Assembly: GCA_001630475.1 (NCBI GenBank)
Contig: KV419411.1
Coordinates: forward strand, 323,894-387,893
Source of the DNA: Sistotremastrum niveocremeum HHB9708
Taxonomy: Eukaryota > Basidiomycota > Agaricomycetes > Sistotremastrales > Sistotremastraceae
Direction: 5' to 3'
DNA: 64,000 nucleotides
This document shows, one piece after another, positions 13,172-64,000 of this stretch. Position numbers and translations under genes: made by a program. Position 1 is the stretch's first letter, and each line of letters starts with the position of its first letter. The notes under the pieces are model-generated. The model worked only from the letters and a program-made list of their open reading frames with translations. It made no database searches and had not been told where the DNA came from.

Positions 13172-13221
13172 AATACTGTCAATCAAAGATCTTCCCATCC
13201 CTCAGTCATCACCACATTGCC

Positions 13222-14394
13222 ATGACAGAAAATGACCTCACTCAACAACCACAACCAGTCCAACCATTCAATGACGAAGTTATCTCGTCACTCATGGACA
13301 TTGTCACCGACTATGAACAAAATAAAGTCTCTAAAGTCTCGGCTATCCTCCAACTCCAAGCAAAACTCCCACTTTCGTCAACCGACCCCAACTTCTCCTC
13401 TTCTCTCGCCCACTACATGGAGTTCCTCGACAATCATGACAGGCAACGGACCCTGGCAGAGAAGAGAGGAGCCGGAGATCGAGATGGAGACGGAGATGAT
13501 GATCGACGAAGCCGTACGGAAGCTGGAGGCACGAACGGAGATCGAGCCGAAGAAGCTCTTGATCGACACGCAGCCAAGCGCCCGCGACTCACCGGACATT
13601 CCTCGGACGACGAAGAAGACCCTGTTGAGCCGACTGACACCTCCGGGAATGCTTGGGAGATTGACGAACTCCTCAACCCCGTTGTCTTATCCGAAGAAGC
13701 ACGGAAAACACTGGAACGGCATACCATCTGGGGGAAGGATCCCAAAACCCACCTCCTATCCATACTCAAAGCAGCCCTCCGACCTTCATTCCCTTACTCC
13801 GAATGGGATAACATCATCCGAGGAAAACCCATCAACCTCGATAATGTCCTCTCCAATCTTAATGCCATCGTACCCGATAACCGGCAAACCGAACGAATCG
13901 GGACTGTTGAAATTAGACTCAACACTTTCGTCACGTCTAAGAAGGTCATCAGCCATGGAGATTGGGTATCAGCTTGGTCAGCCACAGAGCGAGCTTACCG
14001 TTTCACTATGCCATGGAGAAGAGACGAACTCGAGCGTTACGCACAGTATATCGGACGGATGTTCACAGCCATTCCCGTCTCCGGACATGGTTGCGTCATC
14101 AAGTTCGAACAGGCGTGTCGGACCCGAGTCTCGCAGCAGAATATCTTTACTCTCCAGGATTTCTCCGAGTTCGTCGACCTCCACACCGCCTTCATCGTCC
14201 CTGCCTTTAGTGCAACGACTTCATCGCAAGCTGGCCGAAGTTCAAGTTCAAAGTCTAGGGACCCTTGCAGGCGATGGAACAACAACCGATGCCCCGATGG
14301 ATCCGACTGCAAATACGCCCACATTTGCAAGGCATGCAGATCCGGTCAGCATCGGTCCGGAGATGAGAAGTGTCCGAAAAAGAAGAGCGGTTGA
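13222..14394 (+). CDS. Gag-like protein of the DIRS element, C-terminal CCCH-type zinc finger
   Basis: A single open frame of 390 aa starts at the first ATG after repeat A1. The N-terminal half is charged and low in complexity (Asp/Arg-rich around residues 85-140). The middle is a helical domain with conserved Trp residues (DWVSAWSATERAY, about residues 247-260). The C-terminus has Cys/His clusters: C-RRWNNNR-C-PDGSD-C-KYA-H (about residues 350-366), then C-KAC and a final C in a Lys-rich tail. This would bind element RNA in a virus-like particle or RNP. The pol frame starts inside it at 14363 in the +1 frame, overlapping the gag stop by 32 nt. Pol may therefore be made by re-initiation or frameshifting. 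The gag frame itself is intact. Confidence 0.85.
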   Translation: MTENDLTQQPQPVQPFNDEVISSLMDIVTDYEQNKVSKVSAILQLQAKLPLSSTDPNFSSSLAHYMEFLDNHDRQRTLAEKRGAGDRDGDGDDDRRSRTEAGGTNGDRAEEALDRHAAKRPRLTGHSSDDEEDPVEPTDTSGNAWEIDELLNPVVLSEEARKTLERHTIWGKDPKTHLLSILKAALRPSFPYSEWDNIIRGKPINLDNVLSNLNAIVPDNRQTERIGTVEIRLNTFVTSKKVISHGDWVSAWSATERAYRFTMPWRRDELERYAQYIGRMFTAIPVSGHGCVIKFEQACRTRVSQQNIFTLQDFSEFVDLHTAFIVPAFSATTSSQAGRSSSSKSRDPCRRWNNNRCPDGSDCKYAHICKACRSGQHRSGDEKCPKKKSG

Positions 14395-16529
14395 TTGGGA
14401 ATTGCAAAGAGCAAAGAGGCCTCGTTATGCTCGCGATTGGTTATGGGAAAACCATGAAGTCAGCGAAACACCTTCGTCGACAGCCTCCGAAACTGCTCCC
14501 CCTATTCCGACGGTCCCCATTGCGATCCGAAATGATCCCGTCATCCAACGCACTCTTCGTGACAACCCTTCTCTCTTCAAAATCATCACTCCTATCAATG
14601 TCGATCGCTTCGAACAACTCCTTGCTTCACATCCAAACCGCCCTCTAGTTCAGTCTGTCTGTGCTGGTTTCCGAGATGGTTTTTGGCCTTTTGCCAGATA
14701 CAACCTCTGTGACTATCCTGAAACGTTAGATCTATCCGATCGGCCGTTGAAGGACGAGCGGCACACTCTCTTCGTCGAAGACCAGCGCGACGAAGAACTC
14801 AGAAAAGGCAGGTTCTCGCCCTCATTTGGGAAGGATCTTCTGCCTGGGATGTACAGCATGCCAATTGGTGTAGTGCCAAAACCTAACTCGGACAAGTTTA
14901 GACTTGTCAATGATCATTCAGCTGGAGATCACTCGCTGAATTCAATGATTGCGAAGGAGGATGCTACTATTCAGCTTGATTAGGGATAGCAACGAATACC
15001 GCAAAAACACAGGTACTCGTGGGTACTCAAGTACAGGTACCTGCTTACTAAGCAAACACGAGTCCAGATACGGCCCGCTCTGGGAAAAAAATTCAAAATA
15101 CAGGTACCCGTAGGCAGGTACCTGTGTTTTTTGGCAGAGGGACTCGCGGGTACCTGAGTACAAGTCCACCATTTTGGCCCAAAATCAGAGGCAGATACGA
15201 GTCCACGGCCTGAAAAAAAACCGCAGGTACCTGCGCACAGGTACCTGAGTCCACGAGTATATACTCGTTGCTATCCTTAAGCTTGATAATATTAAGCATT
15301 TGGGCAGGAATTTATTGGCTGCTAAATCCCTCCACCCCTCCATCCCTCTCATTTTATTCAAATCCGATGTCGCGTCAGCATATCGAAACCTGCCAATGTC
15401 ACCATATTGGCAACTCAAGCAAGTTGTCACCATTTCCGGAGAGCGGTACATTGACCGTTGCAACGTATTTGGGAACAGAGCAGCGGGACGACTTTTCTGT
15501 ACCTTCATGTCGCTCGTGTTGTGGATTGCAACAAATGTCAAAGGCATACTGGATATACTCGCGTACATCGACGATTCTTTTGGCTGGGACTTCGCCCATT
15601 GCCTCGAGTTCTACGCGCCATACAACAAACATTATCCATCTCGTCAAGTCCAACTCCTTAAACTGTGGGATGAGCTGGGTATTCCTCACGAAGAACGAAA
15701 GCAATTATACGGCAGCACTTTACCGATCATTGGCTTCAACGTTGACATCGATAACATGTCAGTCGCGATGGTTCCAGATTCCAAAACTCTACTCGTGTCC
15801 ACCATCCGTAATTTTGTTGGACCACCAGGAACTCGCCGAAAACTCCTCGAATTTCAACGCGTAGCTGGATCCATAAACTGGGCTCTGAACGTCCATCCTC
15901 GCCTCAGGGTCGGTCTTTCTTCGCTCTACGAAAAGATGGCAGGAAAGACTGAACCGCTGAAACCCGTGTGGGTAAGCGAGGCTGTTCGTCGAGAACTTCT
16001 GTGGATTGCGGATCATTTGGTGAAGTCCGACGGTATCTTGTTCCTCAAAGCTGCTGCTTGGGAACCGGACGAAGCTGATATCCATGTTTTTACCGACGCG
16101 TCCATGGAGGGTTTAGGTTTCTGGTCGCCTACTTTCGATGTCGCTTTCACCTTCCCAATACCATTTCCAGCCCCCAACAATGCGATATTCTTCTACGAAT
16201 CATTGATCGTTCTGTACGCTATTCGTTGGGTTGCCTCGCATGGTTATAATCATTCGCGTCTCGCCATCCACTCCGACAACAACAACACTGTCCACATGTT
16301 CAACACTTTATCCGCAACACCCCATTATAGTCGCCTGTTGCGTCTTGCTGTTGACGAACTCATCATCCATGACATCGATTTACGTGTCTATCACATCAGT
16401 GGAGTGGATAACAAGATTGCTGACCTCCTCTCTCGTAATGCCCCTGGAGCTGCACTTGCGCTCAGGCCATCAATGAAGATTGATAGTTTTACACCCCCCG
16501 CGCATTGGCTGGGGGTGTTGCAGAAGTGA
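14363..16529 (+). pseudogene. Reverse transcriptase / RNase H of the DIRS element, interrupted by a MITE
   Basis: The frame opens at ATG 14363 and would read to 16529, but a 299-bp insertion (14981-15279) brings a TAG at its first bases. If the insertion and one 8-bp target copy are discounted, the two halves are in the same frame. The upstream half carries the RT fingers (VVPKPNSDKFRLVNDHSAG). The downstream half has the palm with ILFKSDVASAYRNLPM, the catalytic YIDD at about 15565-15576 and the thumb. RNase H follows: the first Asp in HVFTDASMEGLGF, Glu in FFYESLIVLYAI, Asp in AIHSDNNNTV and the last Asp in SGVDNKIADLLSRN. No other stop or frameshift is visible, so the MITE is the only clear lesion. 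Confidence 0.88.
14981..15279. mobile_element. 299-bp hAT-like MITE inside the reverse transcriptase
   Basis: Termini are inverted: TAGGGATAGCAACGA on the left and, on the complement of the right end, TAAGGATAGCAACGA. An 8-bp target-site duplication AGCTTGAT flanks it (14973-14980 and 15280-15287), the length made by hAT transposases. The interior has no coding capacity. It contains several copies of GGTACCTG and its complement (about 15036-15045, 15100-15124, 15150-15158, 15225-15247), like the subterminal transposase-binding repeats of hAT elements. No hAT transposase is present in the window. Confidence 0.9.
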
Positions 16530-17518
16530 GTCCCACGTCCTCACGCGTCCGACCAAAAGATAGGCCCCCTTGGACGCGTGAAAGACTGATCCGAGAAAGA
16601 GCTATCGCTCTCGGATCTGCGGTGGCTGTCTCTACCAACCTCTCCTACACTACTGCTTTACGAGCTTGGATCCATTTCTGCTCTGCACACGATTTTCCAA
16701 CTCAACCCTCTGCCGATACTCTCAGCTTCTTTGTTGTCTATATGAGTCACTACGTCTCTCCGCGTACAGTCGATTCATACCTCTCCGGCATTTGCAACAA
16801 ACTCGAGGCGTATTATCCTGATATACGTAAACTCCGATCCTCCCTACTCGTCTCAAACACTCTCAAAGGATGCAAACGACTCCGCAATGTCGCCGTACGT
16901 CGAAAGCGTGCTCTCACCATTGATGACCTCAATGTCCTTGTGGTTCACTACTCTCCTTCCCACCAACATGACGACCTCCTATTCATGGCAATCATCACCA
17001 CGGGGTTTTTCTCACTCCAACGTCTTGGGGAATTAGTGCAACCTGACGACACAAGGAAACGCGACTTACGGAAATTACCCCTTCGTCACACCCTCAAAAG
17101 AGATGCATCGCAGATTGAATACTTACTCCCCGCTCACAAAGCTGACCCCTTTTTTGAGGGGAACAGGATCATACTGCAAAAATCAAATCAACCTTGCGAT
17201 GCCTACCTTCATCTTACCAATTTCCTTCAATCTCGCGACCACCTTTTTCCTCTTTTTCCCCAACTTTTCCTCACCTCTGCTGGACAAGTTCCAACACGAA
17301 ATTGGTTCATGCTCCGACTTCGCCAACACTTCCCAGACGACATCGCCGGACACTCCATGCGCTCAGGGGGGGCAACAGCCCTCGCTCTTGCTGGGGTGCC
17401 TGATGAACGTATTCAAGCTTTGGGAAGATGGTCATCGGATGCATTCAAAATGTACATCCGGAAGAATCCTGTCCTTATCCAATCCTTCATCTGGGGGCGA
17501 CCTGTCTTCGATTCCTGA
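16505..17518 (+). CDS. Tyrosine recombinase of the DIRS element
   Basis: About 337 codons in a frame different from RT/RNase H, overlapping its end by 25 nt. No ATG lies near the 5' end (the frame opens at TTG 16505), so translation probably depends on frameshifting near the G-run at 16510-16514 or on splicing. The N-terminal part (RERAIALGSAV...YTTALRAWIHFC) is a SAM-like core-binding domain. The catalytic domain shows the first Arg in FSLQRLGELV and the H-x-x-R box HSMRSGG. It ends with the tyrosine in GRWSSDAFKMYIR, about 14 residues before the stop at 17518. These are the R-H-R-Y residues of tyrosine recombinases. It would insert the circular cDNA without a conventional DDE step. Confidence 0.9.
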   Translation: MAGGVAEVSPTSSRVRPKDRPPWTRERLIRERAIALGSAVAVSTNLSYTTALRAWIHFCSAHDFPTQPSADTLSFFVVYMSHYVSPRTVDSYLSGICNKLEAYYPDIRKLRSSLLVSNTLKGCKRLRNVAVRRKRALTIDDLNVLVVHYSPSHQHDDLLFMAIITTGFFSLQRLGELVQPDDTRKRDLRKLPLRHTLKRDASQIEYLLPAHKADPFFEGNRIILQKSNQPCDAYLHLTNFLQSRDHLFPLFPQLFLTSAGQVPTRNWFMLRLRQHFPDDIAGHSMRSGGATALALAGVPDERIQALGRWSSDAFKMYIRKNPVLIQSFIWGRPVFDS

Positions 17519-18659: not shown

Positions 18660-19538
18660 TTATAGCTGCGAGACTAATTCTACGACAGTATCTTTCATTA
18701 ATCTAAACGTCGACCATGCTTGCATGAAAGATAATTCCGGGCTCCCAACCCTCCTGTACGCCTCTAGAGCAAGTTCATGAAACCACGGGGGAAAAAACTG
18801 GGTCGCCTCTTCTCCGGGATGGTCAGCGAGAAGAAGATCGATGAGACGAGGATTAACAGGTATAAGTTGATCTGATCCTCCAAAGAGCTCCGGATGCCGA
18901 TACGATTTATTGTGCGAGGCGCCGGATGGACCATTTTTTTCTGGCTGTCGACGAATAGGTCGGTCATTAAAGCCCTCAATATATTTGTTGACCTCTTGCT
19001 GAATAAGGGGGACCCATATCCAATCAACGAGGGCTCTGAAACATTGCAATTTGAGCAATCAGTCCCGACTCTGCGAGTACTTTCAAAACATACCGTTGAG
19101 TACGATCATCTGCTTGATACCCTGAGATCTCAACCTCTCGAGCCCACCACTGAAGCATGTTACGACCAGATTTCTCCAGAAACTGCCGCCAAGATCGTTC
19201 AATGACAATATTCCGTACACTCTTGACGAATGTATGCGCCGGGACCAAGTCCAGGTCCAGATCGGGATCCATCGCGGCTCTTCAAGACATAAATATTCAG
19301 ATTATATTTTCCAAGAAATTCTACAGCTGATTACCGCAGAGCTTTCTGACGAGCATAGAGTCGCCCGGTCTCGGTGCCTTTATCAGAGGTGACAGTCAAG
19401 GGCATACCTAATCATCTGGTTAGTCATGGTTCTCATCTGAAGCCTCACGACGTACCTTCTAACTCCCTGACAAGCTTCAGATTAGAGTTTGAAGGTCCAG
19501 TCCTAAGGACCGCCAAAGACCAAGGACTGGACCAGGAC

Positions 19539-21792
19539 TAGTGTTTCGAAGTCCAGTCACGGCAACCGAAAATGACCGGCAACCGTGACCGGACCGAAGC
19601 GGTCGCAACCGGACTGGCGGTTGCGGTCACACTGGATTTTAAGCGGTTGCGGTCCCCGGTCAAGCATGGTTTCGAAAACTGGTGCAACCGGTCGTGACCG
19701 GTCATGACCGGTCACGACCGATGAAATGTCGGGTTGTATGATAGGATAGACTGCAGATATCTTGAGAGTTTGGCTCGGGATTGTGACTGGGGACGCTTCG
19801 AGTACTAGTAGATCAGAGGAATCGAAGCAGATGTGTGAGGAGGGAAGCATGATGTTCGATGGGAGAGGAGTAATGTCCTGTAATCATTAGATACAGGCGA
19901 CTACAGTAAGACCTGAGCGATTGCAATGACTGTTAGCCTCAAGCAGTGCGAAAAAGGAGGGGACGACGCACAAGAAACTCCTGATGCAATGCATCAGACC
20001 CCTCCCATTACAATCTCGCTTTCATGCCCTCTCAGTCCTCGAAATCCTATACTCAGCAGTATCCTCCTTGATAAAGCGAACGAATGGATGCCAGTGCACA
20101 TGTAAATCGAAGGACCGAAGTCGATGGGAACGGTCACGAAGGAAGGGAAGAAGTCGACAATGGAAAGGTGAGGTGGACATGTAAGAAAAGCGCGTCAGAG
20201 ACGTGGTTGCATGGTGTTGACGCGAGAATTCGGCGATTGCTGTGGGAGCTGAGGGTGGGATGAATCCCAGAATAGAGTGATTGGCCGGCTCATTTCGGTT
20301 TCGAGGGCAGCGATGGTGGCGAAGTGATCGATGCAGTATGAGGGGGGCGCTTTGACGACTGCCGTAAGGTGTGTCCAGAGTGATTGTCACTGATTGAGCA
20401 AGATGAAGGGCAATTCGAGAGCACTTCCAGACGATGCCTCCGCGGAGATCCAATTTAGCGCCCAGCCCCTCCAACCTTGTCGACTACTGTACTTTGACTC
20501 AAATTCTGGAGAGCTATGCGTCCGACTGCCTCCTCCACTTCTCGTTATCGCTATGATGCTCTAGTTAACCTAGCTATACGTCAATCGCTAAGACTATCAG
20601 CCGATTTTGGGTGATGGGACACGCAATCATGCGGTTGAGCGAAAAAGATAGTAAGCGTAGAGTCACTATTACTATTCCTGCTGATATACTCCAATATTCA
20701 CCTACTCTCCTACCAGTATCTACTACTCGACCGGTTCAGATATCCACCCCACTCTCCTATATTGCGCGTGCCCACCTCACATTCGAATAGCAACACATTC
20801 CGACCTGCTATCCTGTCACCTGCTGCGTTCGAACCCGGTAATGAAGGCCTGCTTCGAAGAAGAGCTCGCGATCCAGATTCTGCTGGAAGGAAGTCGATGG
20901 TCGTTCATCAAGATCATAGGTCGGTCGTACAGATTCCATCTCAGGTACGTTCTGCCAATTGCGAGTTCGTTGAAGCATTGCTGACTTCCGCTTCTTCGTG
21001 ATCGACTGGATTTCTCCTACCCAATGTCATCTCCTATCGTGACAGCCTACCTACATCCACCTTCCTATCGTCGTCCACCTCTCGCCGTCTCGTCACCTTA
21101 TTCTACCTTCGACCTCAACGATCTCGCGGCGAGCTTGGTTAAAGTAGGAAGTGTTATGCGATTGGCATTTGCACGAGAGGGTACGGAGCTCATCTTCAGG
21201 TGCGTTCATGTCGATCTCAGACTCACACAACTATTGACCGCTCGCTGCATTCTCTACCCACTCCCATCCTCGACGAGCCGATCCCTCGATTGCACTCAAG
21301 TTGCATCCCATTGATCTCAAACACACAGCTTCCTCCCACCGTCCTTCGCAATACTCTACATCTCATCGACAATTCTCGCGTGCCAAGTTCCGTCTCACGG
21401 TTCGTTCTCATGTCGGTCAGGGTACGACCATAGTACGAGTCGTACGACGTCGACGCGAGTGTCTCGATCTGGTGCTCGGTAAGTATTACATGTGGTTGTG
21501 CGATCTCGAAACAATGTAGAATAGTGAGTATCATGATGTACTTCTATTCGTAGTTACAGTAGATACGAATGTTAAGTTGCATGCATGGAATATGATGCGA
21601 CCGGTTCTGTGACCGGTCAGTGAGGCAACCGGTCCTGCAACTGTAACCGGACCGAGGACCGGCAGTCGCGACTGTAGACCGCGGTCACGGTTGCCGGTCG
21701 AGCAAAATCAGTGCGACCGGCAACCGATACCGGCTGCCGGTCGGCGCCTGCGGCGGGCCAGGGTCCGGTTACGACCGGACTTTAAAACACTA
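19539..21792. mobile_element. Inner hAT-like element E2 (2254 bp) with unique interior
   Basis: Ends are TAGTGTTTCGAAGTCC and, on the complement of the right end, TAGTGTTTTAAAGTCC. The 8-bp duplication ACCAGGAC is at 19531-19538 and 21793-21800. About 190 bp at the left and about 200 bp at the right are packed with ACCGGT / GACCGG / GCAACCGG motifs. The interior (about 19725-21590) is ordinary-complexity DNA unlike the arms. Confidence 0.9.
19725..21590. other. Unique interior of E2, possible captured host sequence
   Basis: Codon-like patches exist. On the plus strand an ATG at 20841 opens MKACFEEELAIQILLEGSRW... up to a GTACGT donor at 20945. Further open patches occur at about 21030-21200 (ending at a GTGCGT donor at 21201) and 21300-21430. 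No combination of splice sites gives one long frame, and I recognise no family. The minus-strand frame 20474-20022 looks like a shadow. No transposase is visible. Alternatives are a captured gene fragment (Pack-type element) or a decayed transposase. Confidence 0.35.
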
Positions 21793-22064
21793 ACCAGGAC
21801 CAGACCGTTTAGGACCGGACTGTCAGTCCTGGTCCTACCTCGTGCTGAGATTTAGGACTGATCTAGGACCAGTCTTTAGGACCACTGGTGGACCGATGCC
21901 CCTACAGCCTCCCACAGGCATCTAGGCAGTGGTCTTTGATGTTATATAGGTAGAACAACTGCAACTGAGTAGATATAGATAGTTAAAACCCTGAAAATGA
22001 ATAAAAATAATCAAAAAGACCGAAGGACCGGACCAGGACCAGTCTTTTTAGGACCGGTCCTGGT

Positions 22065-22520
22065 TAGTGTTTGAAAGTCGGGTCAGGTCAGGTTTTGGGC
22101 ACCTTGGAGGCGATGACCATGACTTCTAGCGGTCATGGTCATGGCAAAATCTCATGACCATGACTGCTAGCGGTCGCGGTCTTGCCAAAGTTGGGTGACC
22201 ATGACCAAACTTTGACCGGTCTTGCGGTCATGACCTCAAAAAAGTCCTAAATCTCCACTTTTTAGTACTTAATCTGGTTTGTTGGACCTCATATATGATG
22301 TATATGACAAGCAGAACACACCAGAATGCCTGGGGAAGGCTCTAGACAATGTTCTACCTATGTTGGTCATGGGGTCTGGTCGTGGATTACCGGGAGGTCC
22401 ATGACTGCAACCTGACCATGAGCCCCAAGGCATGACCATGACCATGGTCTGGTCATTGTGGTCAGGTTCCAGTCAAGTTACAGTTTTTGAGCGGTCGCGT
22501 GACCCGACTTTCAAACACTA
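22065..22520. mobile_element. Inner hAT-like MITE E3 (456 bp)
   Basis: The first 21 bp (22065-22085) are the exact reverse complement of the last 21 bp (22500-22520). The 8-bp duplication GTCCTGGT lies at 22057-22064 and 22521-22528. The interior is made of ATGACC / GGTCATG repeats and has no coding capacity. Confidence 0.93.
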
Positions 22521-23382
22521 GTCCTGGTTGCTGGTCCCACCAAATCCCAAGGACCAGGACCGCAAATCAGTCCTGGTCCCGCCTCAAAAAACGCCAAAGA
22601 CCGGACCGGACCGGACCTTCAAACCCTACTTCAGATACAGATATTCGACTGCGTACTCATTCCGTGCGTTTGGAACGACATAGTAAGCATGGATTTTACC
22701 CCAATAGTCTCTGATACCATAGATATCATAGCCCATGAAGCTAAGCTTCTCGTGCCCATCGACCGCCCACTTCTCATTAGGTCCAATCGAAACAACTTTA
22801 CCCCGGTGAATTTTATTCGTCCGAAAGTCAGGATGGCGAATAACAAATCCCTCAGGTGCGAGCATCTTCATTATATCTCGGACTTCGTTACTGCAACAAG
22901 AATTAGATTGCGGAAGCAAAAGAGCAAAATCAACATACCGAGGGATATGAATACCCTTTCGTCGAAGAGCGTCAGTGACGTAGTTTGGACCACGGCCACA
23001 GGTCGGATCTTCATATATCTCCTCGCTGACGTATTCAATGATCTGAGCTTGTGTTAGACCGTGATTTTTCTTGCGTGCGGTGACGATGTTGAGTTTCAGC
23101 ATGGCACGTCCGAGAGCACTGCGGCTGAGCAGATGTATGAATGTCAGTAGTCAATGACTGAGAGGCAGGGTACGTACGACATGGAGTATTTTGGATGTTC
23201 AAAATCGAGCTCATCGCATATGTCCTTGTAGCCATTGATGCCGCGATTGACATATCCTTGCAGGATTTCCTTGAGTTCGTCGGTGATGGGGACTAGTGCA
23301 ATGGTTCGTCAGACCGTTCGATATATGAGAGGGAAAATAACTGACTGGGTTCGCCATACTGATTAGTACCGTTTCCTGGCAT

Positions 23383-24110: not shown

Positions 24111-27100
24111 ATGTCTTCGCATTCTCATGCTCATGCTCATGACCCAGCCCTCTATTGCGCTCATTGCAGCCGATATTTCAAGGCAGCCAAGTTCCATGAC
24201 CGTCTGTGCGATTTCTGTCATCGAATCGACAAGGGTGCCAGTAATCCAACCGATCTGGAGAAATGGAAGGTACGTAGTCACTGTTTAATGCGGTGCTGCA
24301 GCTAACTCACTCGTATCATCAGAAAAATCAATGCCCCTCTTGCGGAATGATTGTCACCACCCTTATCGACCCAGTTTGTGGTCCATGCACGCATGCAAAT
24401 GCGCCTTCGGGTCCACCTGCTTTGCAACCGTCGACTCAACAGCATTCTGTCGGGGACGCCTCTGGTACATCATTTATTTCTGAGCATATTGTATCTAACT
24501 ACCTGTCTGCTCTAGACCAACTCGCTGCTCAGGCTGCCTCGATAGAGTTCGAAGGTCCAGTCCACGTGACTGCAGGCAACCGAAGGTCGTGGTGGGGTCG
24601 TGACTGGACTGCAGTTGCTGGTCATCTGGATTTCTGANNNNNNNNNNNNNNNNNNNNNNNNNNNNNNNNNNNNNNNNNNNNNNNNNNNNNNNNNNNNNNN
24701 NNNNNNNNNNNNNNNNNNNNNNNNNNNNNNNNNNNNNNNNNNNNNNNNNNNNNNNNNNNNNNNNNNNNNNNNNNNNNNNNNNNNNNNNNNNNNNNNNNNN
24801 NNNNNNNNNNNNNNNNNNNNNNNNNNNNNNNNNNNNNNNNNNNNNNNNNNNNNNNNNNNNNNNNNNNNNNNNNNNNNNNNNNNNNNNNNNNNNNNNNNNN
24901 NNNNNNNNNNNNNNNNNNNNNNNNNNNNNNNNNNNNNNNNNNNNNNNNNNNNNNNNNNNNNNNNNNNNNNNNNNNNNNNNNNNNNNNNNNNNNNNNNNNN
25001 NNNNNNNNNNNNNNNNNNNNNNNNNNNNNNNNNNNNNNNNNNNNNNNNNNNNNNNNNNNNNNNNNNNNNNNNNNNNNNNNNNNNNNNNNNNNNNNNNNNN
25101 NNNNNNNNNNNNNNNNNNNNNNNNNNNNNNNNNNNNNNNNNNNNNNNNNNNNNNNNNNNNNNNNNNNATTTCTGAAAATCAGGCAACCGGCAACTGCAGT
25201 CATGACCAGTCGCAACCGTGGTCGCAACCGAGGACCCTTAAGGGCCCTCAGACAGGGTATACCCAGGGTATTTTGGGTGTCAAGTGGGTATTTATGGCCA
25301 TGTATTCACCATATATTGTATCATAGAGTGTTCCTATGCATTAATATACACTATATGACCACTAACAAGACCCAAAAACAATATATAATTGATTAAAATA
25401 ATGGTTTATACCAGTCATGACCTCAGTTGCTGGCCATGACTGGTCAGGCAACTGGTCTTTTTGTGACTGGTTGCCGAACCCTGCAACCGGTTGCAGTTGC
25501 CAGTCATGCAAAATTTTGACAGGCAACCGGACCAGCAGTTATCAGTCACAGGCAAAAACGGAAAAAGTCCAGTCGCAACCGGACTTTCAAACTCTAGTTC
25601 TCCCGCTTCCGAGGAGAGGCTGGAGCTGAACGCCAATTCAGCCCGGATTGGGGAACTCGAGGTGCAGTTGGGCCCGGGTTTCCTAATCCGGTCCTGGCTG
25701 CCCCCGCTGGCCTTGCTCGCGCCACAGCTTCACGAACCCAAAGCATTATCCAAGATCGGCATCATGCTATGTCTCTATCCGGCAACTCCATATCAACTAT
25801 CCGTCTTGAATTTCATTCTCTTGCATATCTCGACAAGGGTGCTGTCGAACCGCCGTTGCCACTCAAGATTGGCGGTTTCCGGACCTGTGCCATCACTTTC
25901 AACTCTGACGAGCGAATCACTACTGCGTGTAATCATCTGTGGACTCTTGGAGACGGCTGGCAAGACACATGGGACCGTATATCATCGATTCAAATCAACC
26001 CACTGTGAGAAGCTCATCTTTTTGATTGTGCTGTGCTTATCTTGCGGTTTTACTAAAGGACGGATCTAAAATACATGTGGGTCGACGGGAAAGTCATGCT
26101 TAATGCACGCTATTTTGCCCTGCACAATGGCCTGCCCGGACTTCCATTGGGTCTCATTTTTGCAGATGCCAACAGCGCAGAAAACAAGGGCTATCTCATT
26201 AAACCAAGCAACTCAAAACAGTATCTCTGCAAGCTATATGTGTTGATTGATGCGGCGCAAGTATTGGTACGTCAAAATTGGACTCTACAGAAGGACCGGA
26301 AGTAACTAATGAGAGCTCGTAACATATAGCGAAGACATCACGAAAGCCTTGCTAACACTACAAGTGTCCTGGACAACTTCAGCAAACCTGAGGTCAACGC
26401 CATCACCTCAAAGCGAGCCAGATCGAATACAGTCACGCCTTCCACCTATGACCCAGTAATCGCTTCGCCTCCTCGAAAGAGGTCAACCAGGGCAACCCAG
26501 TTGCTTCAGAGTACGTTCACCCATTTTCGTTCTGAAAAGCCAAAGTTAAGTGATCAATGTCCAGGTCCTATCCGGAGCCCGTTCACAAACACAAAGCACA
26601 GTTCAAAGCCTCGTTGGCAGTCAATTTCTTTCAATCTTTCATTCATTGTCCCTCATCTGCAACTCTACACAATCCGTACATTCGAGAAGATATATGAGGG
26701 GAAGCTGACTGATCGACCATTCAACACCACCGGATTTACTAAAGATGTCTATAAGGTGGGTACTCAGCTTTTTCAGTGTTACTCAATGTTGAACTCATCG
26801 ATGGCGTCCCAGCTCAAGGTTGACAACAAGATGTATGTCGCCAAGGAGTTCCGCAAGTCCTTCGGCTTCAATAAGGCCGATCAGCAGTCAGCTTTGGAGG
26901 GAGAAAGCCTGCGGTCTTGGGTGCAACGCCTTCTCATTGAGGACTTCATAGCCTTCGCTGCCGAGATGAAAGTCAATGTGTATCGTAAGCACAAATTCTC
27001 TCCAGTTGTGCACGTGAGTTCTGATACATTTGCTACACAGAGTTTCATTCAGCAAACAGTTTCCTTATTCAACTGAGTCGGGCTGCGAACAATGTGACCC

Positions 27101-63924: not shown

Positions 63925-64000
63925 TAGAGTTCGAAGGTCCAGTCCACGTGACTGCAGGCAACCGAAGGTCGTGGTGGGGTCGTGACTGGACTGCAGTTGC
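63925..64000. mobile_element. Left end of a hAT-like element, same family as E4 (runs off the window)
   Basis: 76 bp, starting TAGAGTTCGAAGGTCC, identical as far as I can read to 24543-24618. The element continues beyond the right edge. Confidence 0.85.

Follow-up and report, generated by a model that had tools for sequence, protein, structure and literature searches.

We analysed a 64-kb window (G000:C18:323894-387893) of a 34.7-Mb assembly of 111 contigs, which are written here as C9, C18, C41 and so on. The assembly is fungal by its genes and by the relatives of its proteins. The window, that is, the whole stretch of DNA analysed, holds three non-autonomous hAT-type elements, here called E1, E2 and E3, which are nested in one integrase-like gene. 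The nest itself is ordinary. All positions without a contig name refer to the window.

A search for pairs of terminal inverted repeats (TIRs) flanked by perfect 8-bp duplications returned exactly three pairs in the window, those of E1, E2, and E3, and none in 40 order-2 Markov shuffles of it. The base-exact ends that a preliminary description had assigned to the three elements are thus verified. E1 (19483-22628, plus strand) is a hAT-type miniature inverted-repeat transposable element (MITE). Its own 420 bp are split by E2 and E3 into three plus-strand pieces (19483-19538, 21801-22064, and 22529-22628), and its target-site duplication, CTTCAGAT, lies at 19475-19482 and 22629-22636. E2 (19539-21792, plus strand) is a 2254-bp non-autonomous hAT element between two copies of ACCAGGAC, at 19531-19538 and 21793-21800. 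E3 (22065-22520, plus strand) is a 456-bp hAT-type MITE with perfect 21-bp TIRs and the duplication GTCCTGGT at 22057-22064 and 22521-22528; no strand is assigned to the duplications. The TIRs are 21 bp long and 90% identical in E1, 20 bp and 85% in E2, and 21 bp and 100% in E3.

Once E2 and E3 are taken out, together with one copy of each duplication, E1 measures 420 bp, in line with the length that the preliminary description had proposed for the underlying MITE. E1 has eight matches in the genome. Full-length copies on C41, C68, and C23 (L062-L064) align without interruption over positions 1-420 at 99.0-99.3% identity. Perfect 8-bp duplications flank two of these three, those on C41 and C23, and not the one on C68. 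Because these copies run through the sites occupied by E2 and E3, both nested insertions are independently supported, and the nest of three hAT-like elements is real. Both E1 and E3 are short, have TIRs and duplications, and occur in multiple near-identical copies, as MITEs do. A further E1 copy (C32:108224-110865) is divided by about 2.4 kb of N, with differing 8-mers at its flanks, and is perhaps another nest. Two further nests of like kind, L020 and C38a, were found among 44 joined elements, in a scan that, owing to its size limit, passes over the nest of the window itself.

The integrase-like open frame cut by E1 lies at 22637-23150 on the minus strand. The remainder of the interrupted exon occupies 19456-19474 on the minus strand; next come a 48-nt intron (19408-19455) and an exon with the motif TSDKGTETG. 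When the outer flanks are joined, the exon is open again up to this intron, which has GTACGT, CTAAC, and TTAG, and the frame continues over it to TSDKGTETG. The preliminary description had stated that the exon is restored. The Pfam integrase-core match (rva_4) is under the cut-off, at 17.7 bits versus 26. The integrase-like sequence has 13 matches in the genome, the window's own included, some of which are pieces of one locus.

An order of events running from the gene to E1 and then to E2 and E3 had also been proposed. Of this order, the entry of E2 and E3 into E1 sequence stands, but whether they entered before or after E1 reached the gene cannot be read, nor can the relative order of E2 and E3. 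Since each of the three duplications is perfect, the insertions cannot be ordered by age. This leaves room for a composite of all three elements, or of E1 and one other, built elsewhere before it jumped into the integrase gene, and elements that big or bigger do carry TIRs and perfect duplications (E2 at 2.25 kb and an element on C9, described below, at 7.4 kb). However, no other copy of E1 was found with E2 or E3 in it. On C41, C68, and C23 both sites are intact, a copy on C79 spans only the E3 site and one on C54 only the E2 site, both without an insert, and the C32 copy, with N inside, cannot be judged. We consider a composite jump rather unlikely. A misjoining of repeats during assembly is highly improbable: repeats are abundant and two runs of N lie inside the window, yet the three exact duplications and the uninterrupted E1 copies agree base by base, and joining across the outer pair restores the exon.

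E3 has at least 50 matches in the genome, at least 37 of them full length, its own copy included; these counts are lower bounds, with 40 of 46 candidates scored. Thirty copies were fetched, two of them cut by N. Among the 28 complete copies, the window's included, 26 have perfect duplications, one has a duplication with a mismatch, and one has none. The closest relatives of E3 are 98% identical. Recent movement of E1 and E3 is supported by these E3 relatives, by E1 relatives with 99% identity, and by the 26 of 28 perfect duplications. Thus, the recency claimed in the preliminary description holds, while the probably ongoing activity it added is not demonstrable from one genome.

The 8-bp duplications of E1, E2, and E3 and their inverted TAGNG termini are both typical of the hAT superfamily, of which short TIRs starting with TAGNG or a similar motif are a hallmark. 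Such ends recur across the genome. The TIR pattern TAGNGTTNNNANGTCC has 513 matches versus 20 for its reversed control, and a longer TIR pattern, with at most two mismatches, has 533 versus 1; a genome search with the TIRs had been proposed earlier. We also find that the E3 duplication is the reverse complement of the E2 duplication, that is, the identical 8-mer on opposite strands, a relation unremarked in the preliminary description. This 8-mer occurs six times in the 420-bp E1, three times per strand. That it was targeted twice within 420 bp suggests a target preference, although two events prove nothing. Across 42 duplications, G stands at the first position in 40 of 84 cases, with both strands counted and the figure therefore symmetric by construction.

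E2 had been treated as a plain non-autonomous copy, but it is a member of a family whose ends are conserved and whose interiors are mostly unalignable. In a genome search with the window's E2, the ends recur and the interior has no other match among those listed. We assembled 13 further elements with both ends from fetched loci, giving a family of 14 that ranges from 2063 to 2419 bp; of the loci matching just one E2 end, L057 alone was examined, separately from this set. Perfect duplications flank 11 of the 14, the exceptions being a second copy on C18 (not the window's E2), C24b, and C26. In the window's E2, the left terminal module (19539-19721, plus strand) spans about 183 bp and ends in a 32-bp palindrome (19689-19720), and the right terminal module (21598-21792, plus strand) spans about 195 bp. 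The 14 elements have a column identity of 0.88-0.77 within the first 180 bases and of 0.84-0.85 within the last 155 or so; in the interior it falls to 0.34-0.46 where most members align. Identities from global alignment with lenient gaps level off near 0.7 in the interior and were set aside. No two of the 14 interiors are near-identical, which sets E2 apart from MITEs; the members of a quartet (C22, C38a, C54, and C27) share about 67% identity over parts of the interior.

Despite this divergence, the interiors are homologous. Most are purine-rich on the left and pyrimidine-rich on the right, with a similar fine pattern that is weakest in C36, and each of the 91 pairs aligns better forward than reversed. 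They probably do not code for protein, judging by several features of their sequence. An excess of open reading frames (ORFs) is absent from 13 of the 14 elements (C12, P = 0.025), no bias of indels to multiples of three is seen in the three pairs examined, similarity within the quartet is scattered over all frames and both strands, and a Pfam search of seven E2 ORFs gave no match. Other origins were considered and rejected. Mutation of the interior resembling repeat-induced point mutation (RIP) is rejected on the near-equal transitions and transversions in the three best quartet pairs; in the three quartet pairs involving C27, transversions exceed transitions. Captured host DNA, as in Pack-TIR elements, is rejected for the window's E2, the one interior covered by this test, with no other genomic match listed for it. 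A known structured RNA is likewise rejected: no Rfam family reaches its gathering score, and the three sub-threshold matches are all in E3. In the quartet, two adjacent hairpins with near-constant stems and varying loops lie about 845-925 bases from the left end, amid sequence that has otherwise diverged; this island is weak, and we make no claim for it.

The E2 alignment itself showed AG|GTGCGT on the right and GACGCAC on the left, which resemble splicing signals facing outward from the element. In the window's E2, a 59-nt intron-like signal (GTGCGT .. CTAAC .. CTCAG) lies at 19913-19971 on the minus strand, facing left. A donor GTACGT with a branch-point motif CTGAC 36 nt on (20945-20985, plus strand) faces right. 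This donor lies 847 bp from the right end, beyond the range of the other copies, with a YAG at 101 nt; a second donor-like GTGCGT, at 21200 on the plus strand, has no canonical branch point. Across the family, the left donor, on the minus strand, lies 405-435 bases from the left end (536 in C36, owing to an insert), and a following YAG would close introns of 53-74 nt in 13 of 14 elements and of 107 nt in C24b. On the right, plus-strand donors 520-680 bp from the end are followed by a branch point about 33-38 nt on in 10 of 14; the second C18 copy and C21 have the donor and lack the canonical branch point.

A strict pattern of donor and branch point recurs at fixed places, on the left in 12 of 14 elements and on the right in 10. 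In 200 shuffles the corresponding means are 0.085 (maximum 1 of 14) and 0.155 (maximum 2 of 14), and the opposite strands of both places give 0 of 14. In total there are 29 strict matches, overlapping ones counted, versus a mean of 4.8 and a maximum of 11 in 50 shuffles. The sequence around the signals is mostly at the alignment background. Upstream of the left donor, 9 of 14 elements have a CCAAT box (nominal P = 5e-6 among very many k-mer and position tests); this signal is weak, and nothing is claimed from it. The frames that reach the donors are short in most copies: the longest is at most 37 residues on the right in nine elements and at most 44 on the left in 11. Should the introns be in use, the resulting RNA would therefore probably be non-coding, though this is not certain.

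Genome-wide, 21 matches to PF05699 (hATC) were detected. One of them lies in a 7366-bp element (C9:16437-23802) with the duplication AACGGCGC at both sides and an identical 20-bp TIR, TAGTGTTCCAAAGTCCGGTC, at both ends. Its ends resemble those of E2, with 69% identity over 182 bp on the left and 73% over 105 bp on the right. The exon stretches of its transposase are open when aligned to a relative, stop codons fall between the exons, and the motif regions TSDLWS, TLDN, RW, and CERLFS are present, which we take, aided by an alignment to Hermes, to hold the catalytic D, D, RW, and E of hAT transposases. Searched without two small exons, this protein has nine relatives among 7996 candidates scored, with 31-42% identity, all from Agaricomycetes (e.g., Lyophyllum, Hypsizygus, and Agaricus); the best of these relatives has a match to Hermes at 8.6e-11. 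With its hATC domain, its putative catalytic residues, and its linked E2-like ends, the C9 transposase is apparently intact and is a candidate source for E2-type ends. The preliminary description had posited an unseen transposase and an autonomous hAT. The C9 element fills that place for E2-like ends, but no autonomous partner for E1 or E3 was found in the genome.

Beside the C9 transposase lies a divergently oriented, multi-exon gene model (L093, C9:17824-18194) with no other match in the genome and no Pfam match. Transposase loci on C13 and C39 both have an E2-like right end downstream. The C39 locus (C39:39300-46285) was rejected as an autonomous partner; it has transposase and right end, but no left TIR was found in the stretch. 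Two further stretches, C10:634395-637768 and C21:117500-120827, have 3.3-3.4 kb between matching TIRs and E2-like right ends, with no transposase match among those listed.

We interpret the locus as a nest of trans-mobilised hAT elements, in which the E2 family is under selection on its ends and splice signals, and give this whole explanation a probability of about 0.85. The ends, the duplications, the uninterrupted E1 relatives, the restored exon, and the related copies are observed. A hAT transposase acting in trans, which for E2 would be of the C9 type, would recognise the TAGNGTT ends and subterminal motifs, excise the element, and insert it by an 8-bp staggered cut that yields the target-site duplication. 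E1 would have entered the integrase-like exon in this way, and E2 and E3 two copies of one repeated 8-mer within E1. E2 would be more than a deletion derivative: it probably belongs to a group of old lineages, each found without a second, near-identical copy. Perfect duplications mark the insertions of the family as young, and mostly unalignable interiors mark its lineages as old; each E2 lineage has therefore probably kept moving without multiplying, and may persist by continued conservative transposition. Selection would keep both terminal modules and the splice signals that face outward, and the remainder, probably non-coding, would turn over freely.

We tentatively go one step further, with well under even confidence, and propose that E2-type hATs are mobile, spliced, non-coding transcription units. 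The 14 lineages would move conservatively, with selection on the ends and on outward splice modules on both strands, and the remainder would be free, or even favoured, to diverge. Divergence might be favoured, for instance, as identical transcribed copies would meet homology-dependent RNA silencing. Splicing may serve nuclear export, evasion of silencing, or transcription outward into neighbours, or may be a relic of a two-gene ancestor like the C9 element.

Several points weigh against our main interpretation of the locus. Transcription and splicing of E2 are predicted from sequence. The places scored for splice signals were set after viewing the same alignment, and in C36 the place was moved by 130 bp to allow for an insert; otherwise the left count is 11 of 14. 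The left intron of C12 has no branch-point match, and C22 has no donor on the right. In L057, which has an E2-like left end only and whose DNA is N from position 720, both the intron and the purine profile are absent, and the interior is a different one. On the right, most elements have their first YAG beyond the branch point at about 100-250 nt from the donor, and C38b and C54 have none past the branch point within about 260 nt. The longest frame reaching the right donor is 46-102 residues in five of 14 elements, longest in the window's E2 at 20945 (102), and that reaching the left donor is 65-77 residues in three of 14. The E2 splice pattern is absent near the left end of the C9 element, whose transposase was read by eye from its exons. 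E1 and E3 are like the C9 element in TIR only, and their own transposase may differ.

It is possible, though doubtful, that the E2 interiors are neutral filler that drifted from an old ancestor, with the splice-like signals as relics or accidents of alignment. The lack of an ORF excess in 13 of 14 elements, of an Rfam family, and of an indel bias in three pairs would fit such drift, as would the balance of transitions and transversions and the absence of signals from L057. Drift fits poorly with donor and branch-point pairs that hold their places in 12 and 10 elements, amid background-level sequence, when shuffles never exceed 1 and 2, or with a total of 29 matches where shuffles reach 11 at most. 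Cargo in the form of two divergent, rapidly evolving protein genes, each with several exons too short to have been noticed as coding, would explain why intron signals are conserved on both outward strands. It would also suit the longer frames that reach some donors (five on the right, three on the left) and the second, divergent gene of the related C9 element. We nevertheless judge it improbable, given the short frames in the other nine and 11 elements, the quartet similarity spread over all frames and both strands, and the seven E2 ORFs without a Pfam match.

The nest shares 8-bp duplications and short TIRs starting with TAGNG with hATs of the Hermes/Ac type (Hermes transposase structure 6DWW), and the hATC transposase of C9, whose relative matches Hermes, is a further likeness. 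It differs in that no transposase was found in the window's elements and in that the C9 source has a second, divergent gene. E1 (420 bp) and E3 (456 bp), with several near-identical copies and mostly perfect duplications, are like hAT-derived MITEs such as the Brassica nigra families (PMC7385995), whereas E2, at 2.25 kb, has no near-identical copy found. In maize Ac/Ds, non-autonomous hATs keep their terminal regions while their interiors vary, and some Ds elements are spliced via sites in the element. E2 likewise keeps its ends with differing interiors, but its copies share an architecture and the positions of their splice signals, hundreds of bases inside the ends. Introners have splice sites at their ends, so that splicing takes out the entire element. 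In E2 the signals lie about 345-435 bp from the left end and about 540-850 bp from the right. PMC9860276 describes introners as mobile elements that carry splicing signals, many families having TIRs and duplications, and that create introns in genes; the E2 signals differ in being internal and outward-facing. Fungal hAT and hAT7 elements are of the same fungal hAT group; PMC12730594 describes DNA transposons that likewise have a second gene. There it encodes a TET/JBP dioxygenase, and hAT7 elements make 7-bp duplications. The present duplications measure 8 bp, and the second C9 gene is without a Pfam match. Among the titles and abstract openings listed in searches of open-licence papers, none described the E2 family or hATs with conserved splice signals and variable interiors.

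The nest is a clean case of hAT and MITE activity in a mushroom-type fungus and comes with a probable source of transposase. Should our reading of E2 hold, its family would separate the age of a lineage from that of an insertion, with interiors mostly unalignable and 11 of 14 duplications perfect. Selection on splicing signals alone, without conserved protein or RNA sequence, would then be possible in a transposon.

Elsewhere in the window, consecutive ORFs at 13174-17518 begin with one that has a CCCH zinc finger. The later ones have no Pfam match and, by eye, look like a reverse transcriptase/RNase H and a tyrosine recombinase, in a DIRS-like arrangement. Two more ends of the superfamily lie 2 kb to the right of the nest (24543-25596), with TAGAGTTCGAAGGTCC at 24543 and GACTTTCAAACTCTA ending at 25596. 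They enclose a run of N (24638-25167), and the flanking 8-mers differ, so they may belong to two broken elements. The 30-base 5' end found at 24543 recurs at 63925-64000, in a copy that runs off the window.

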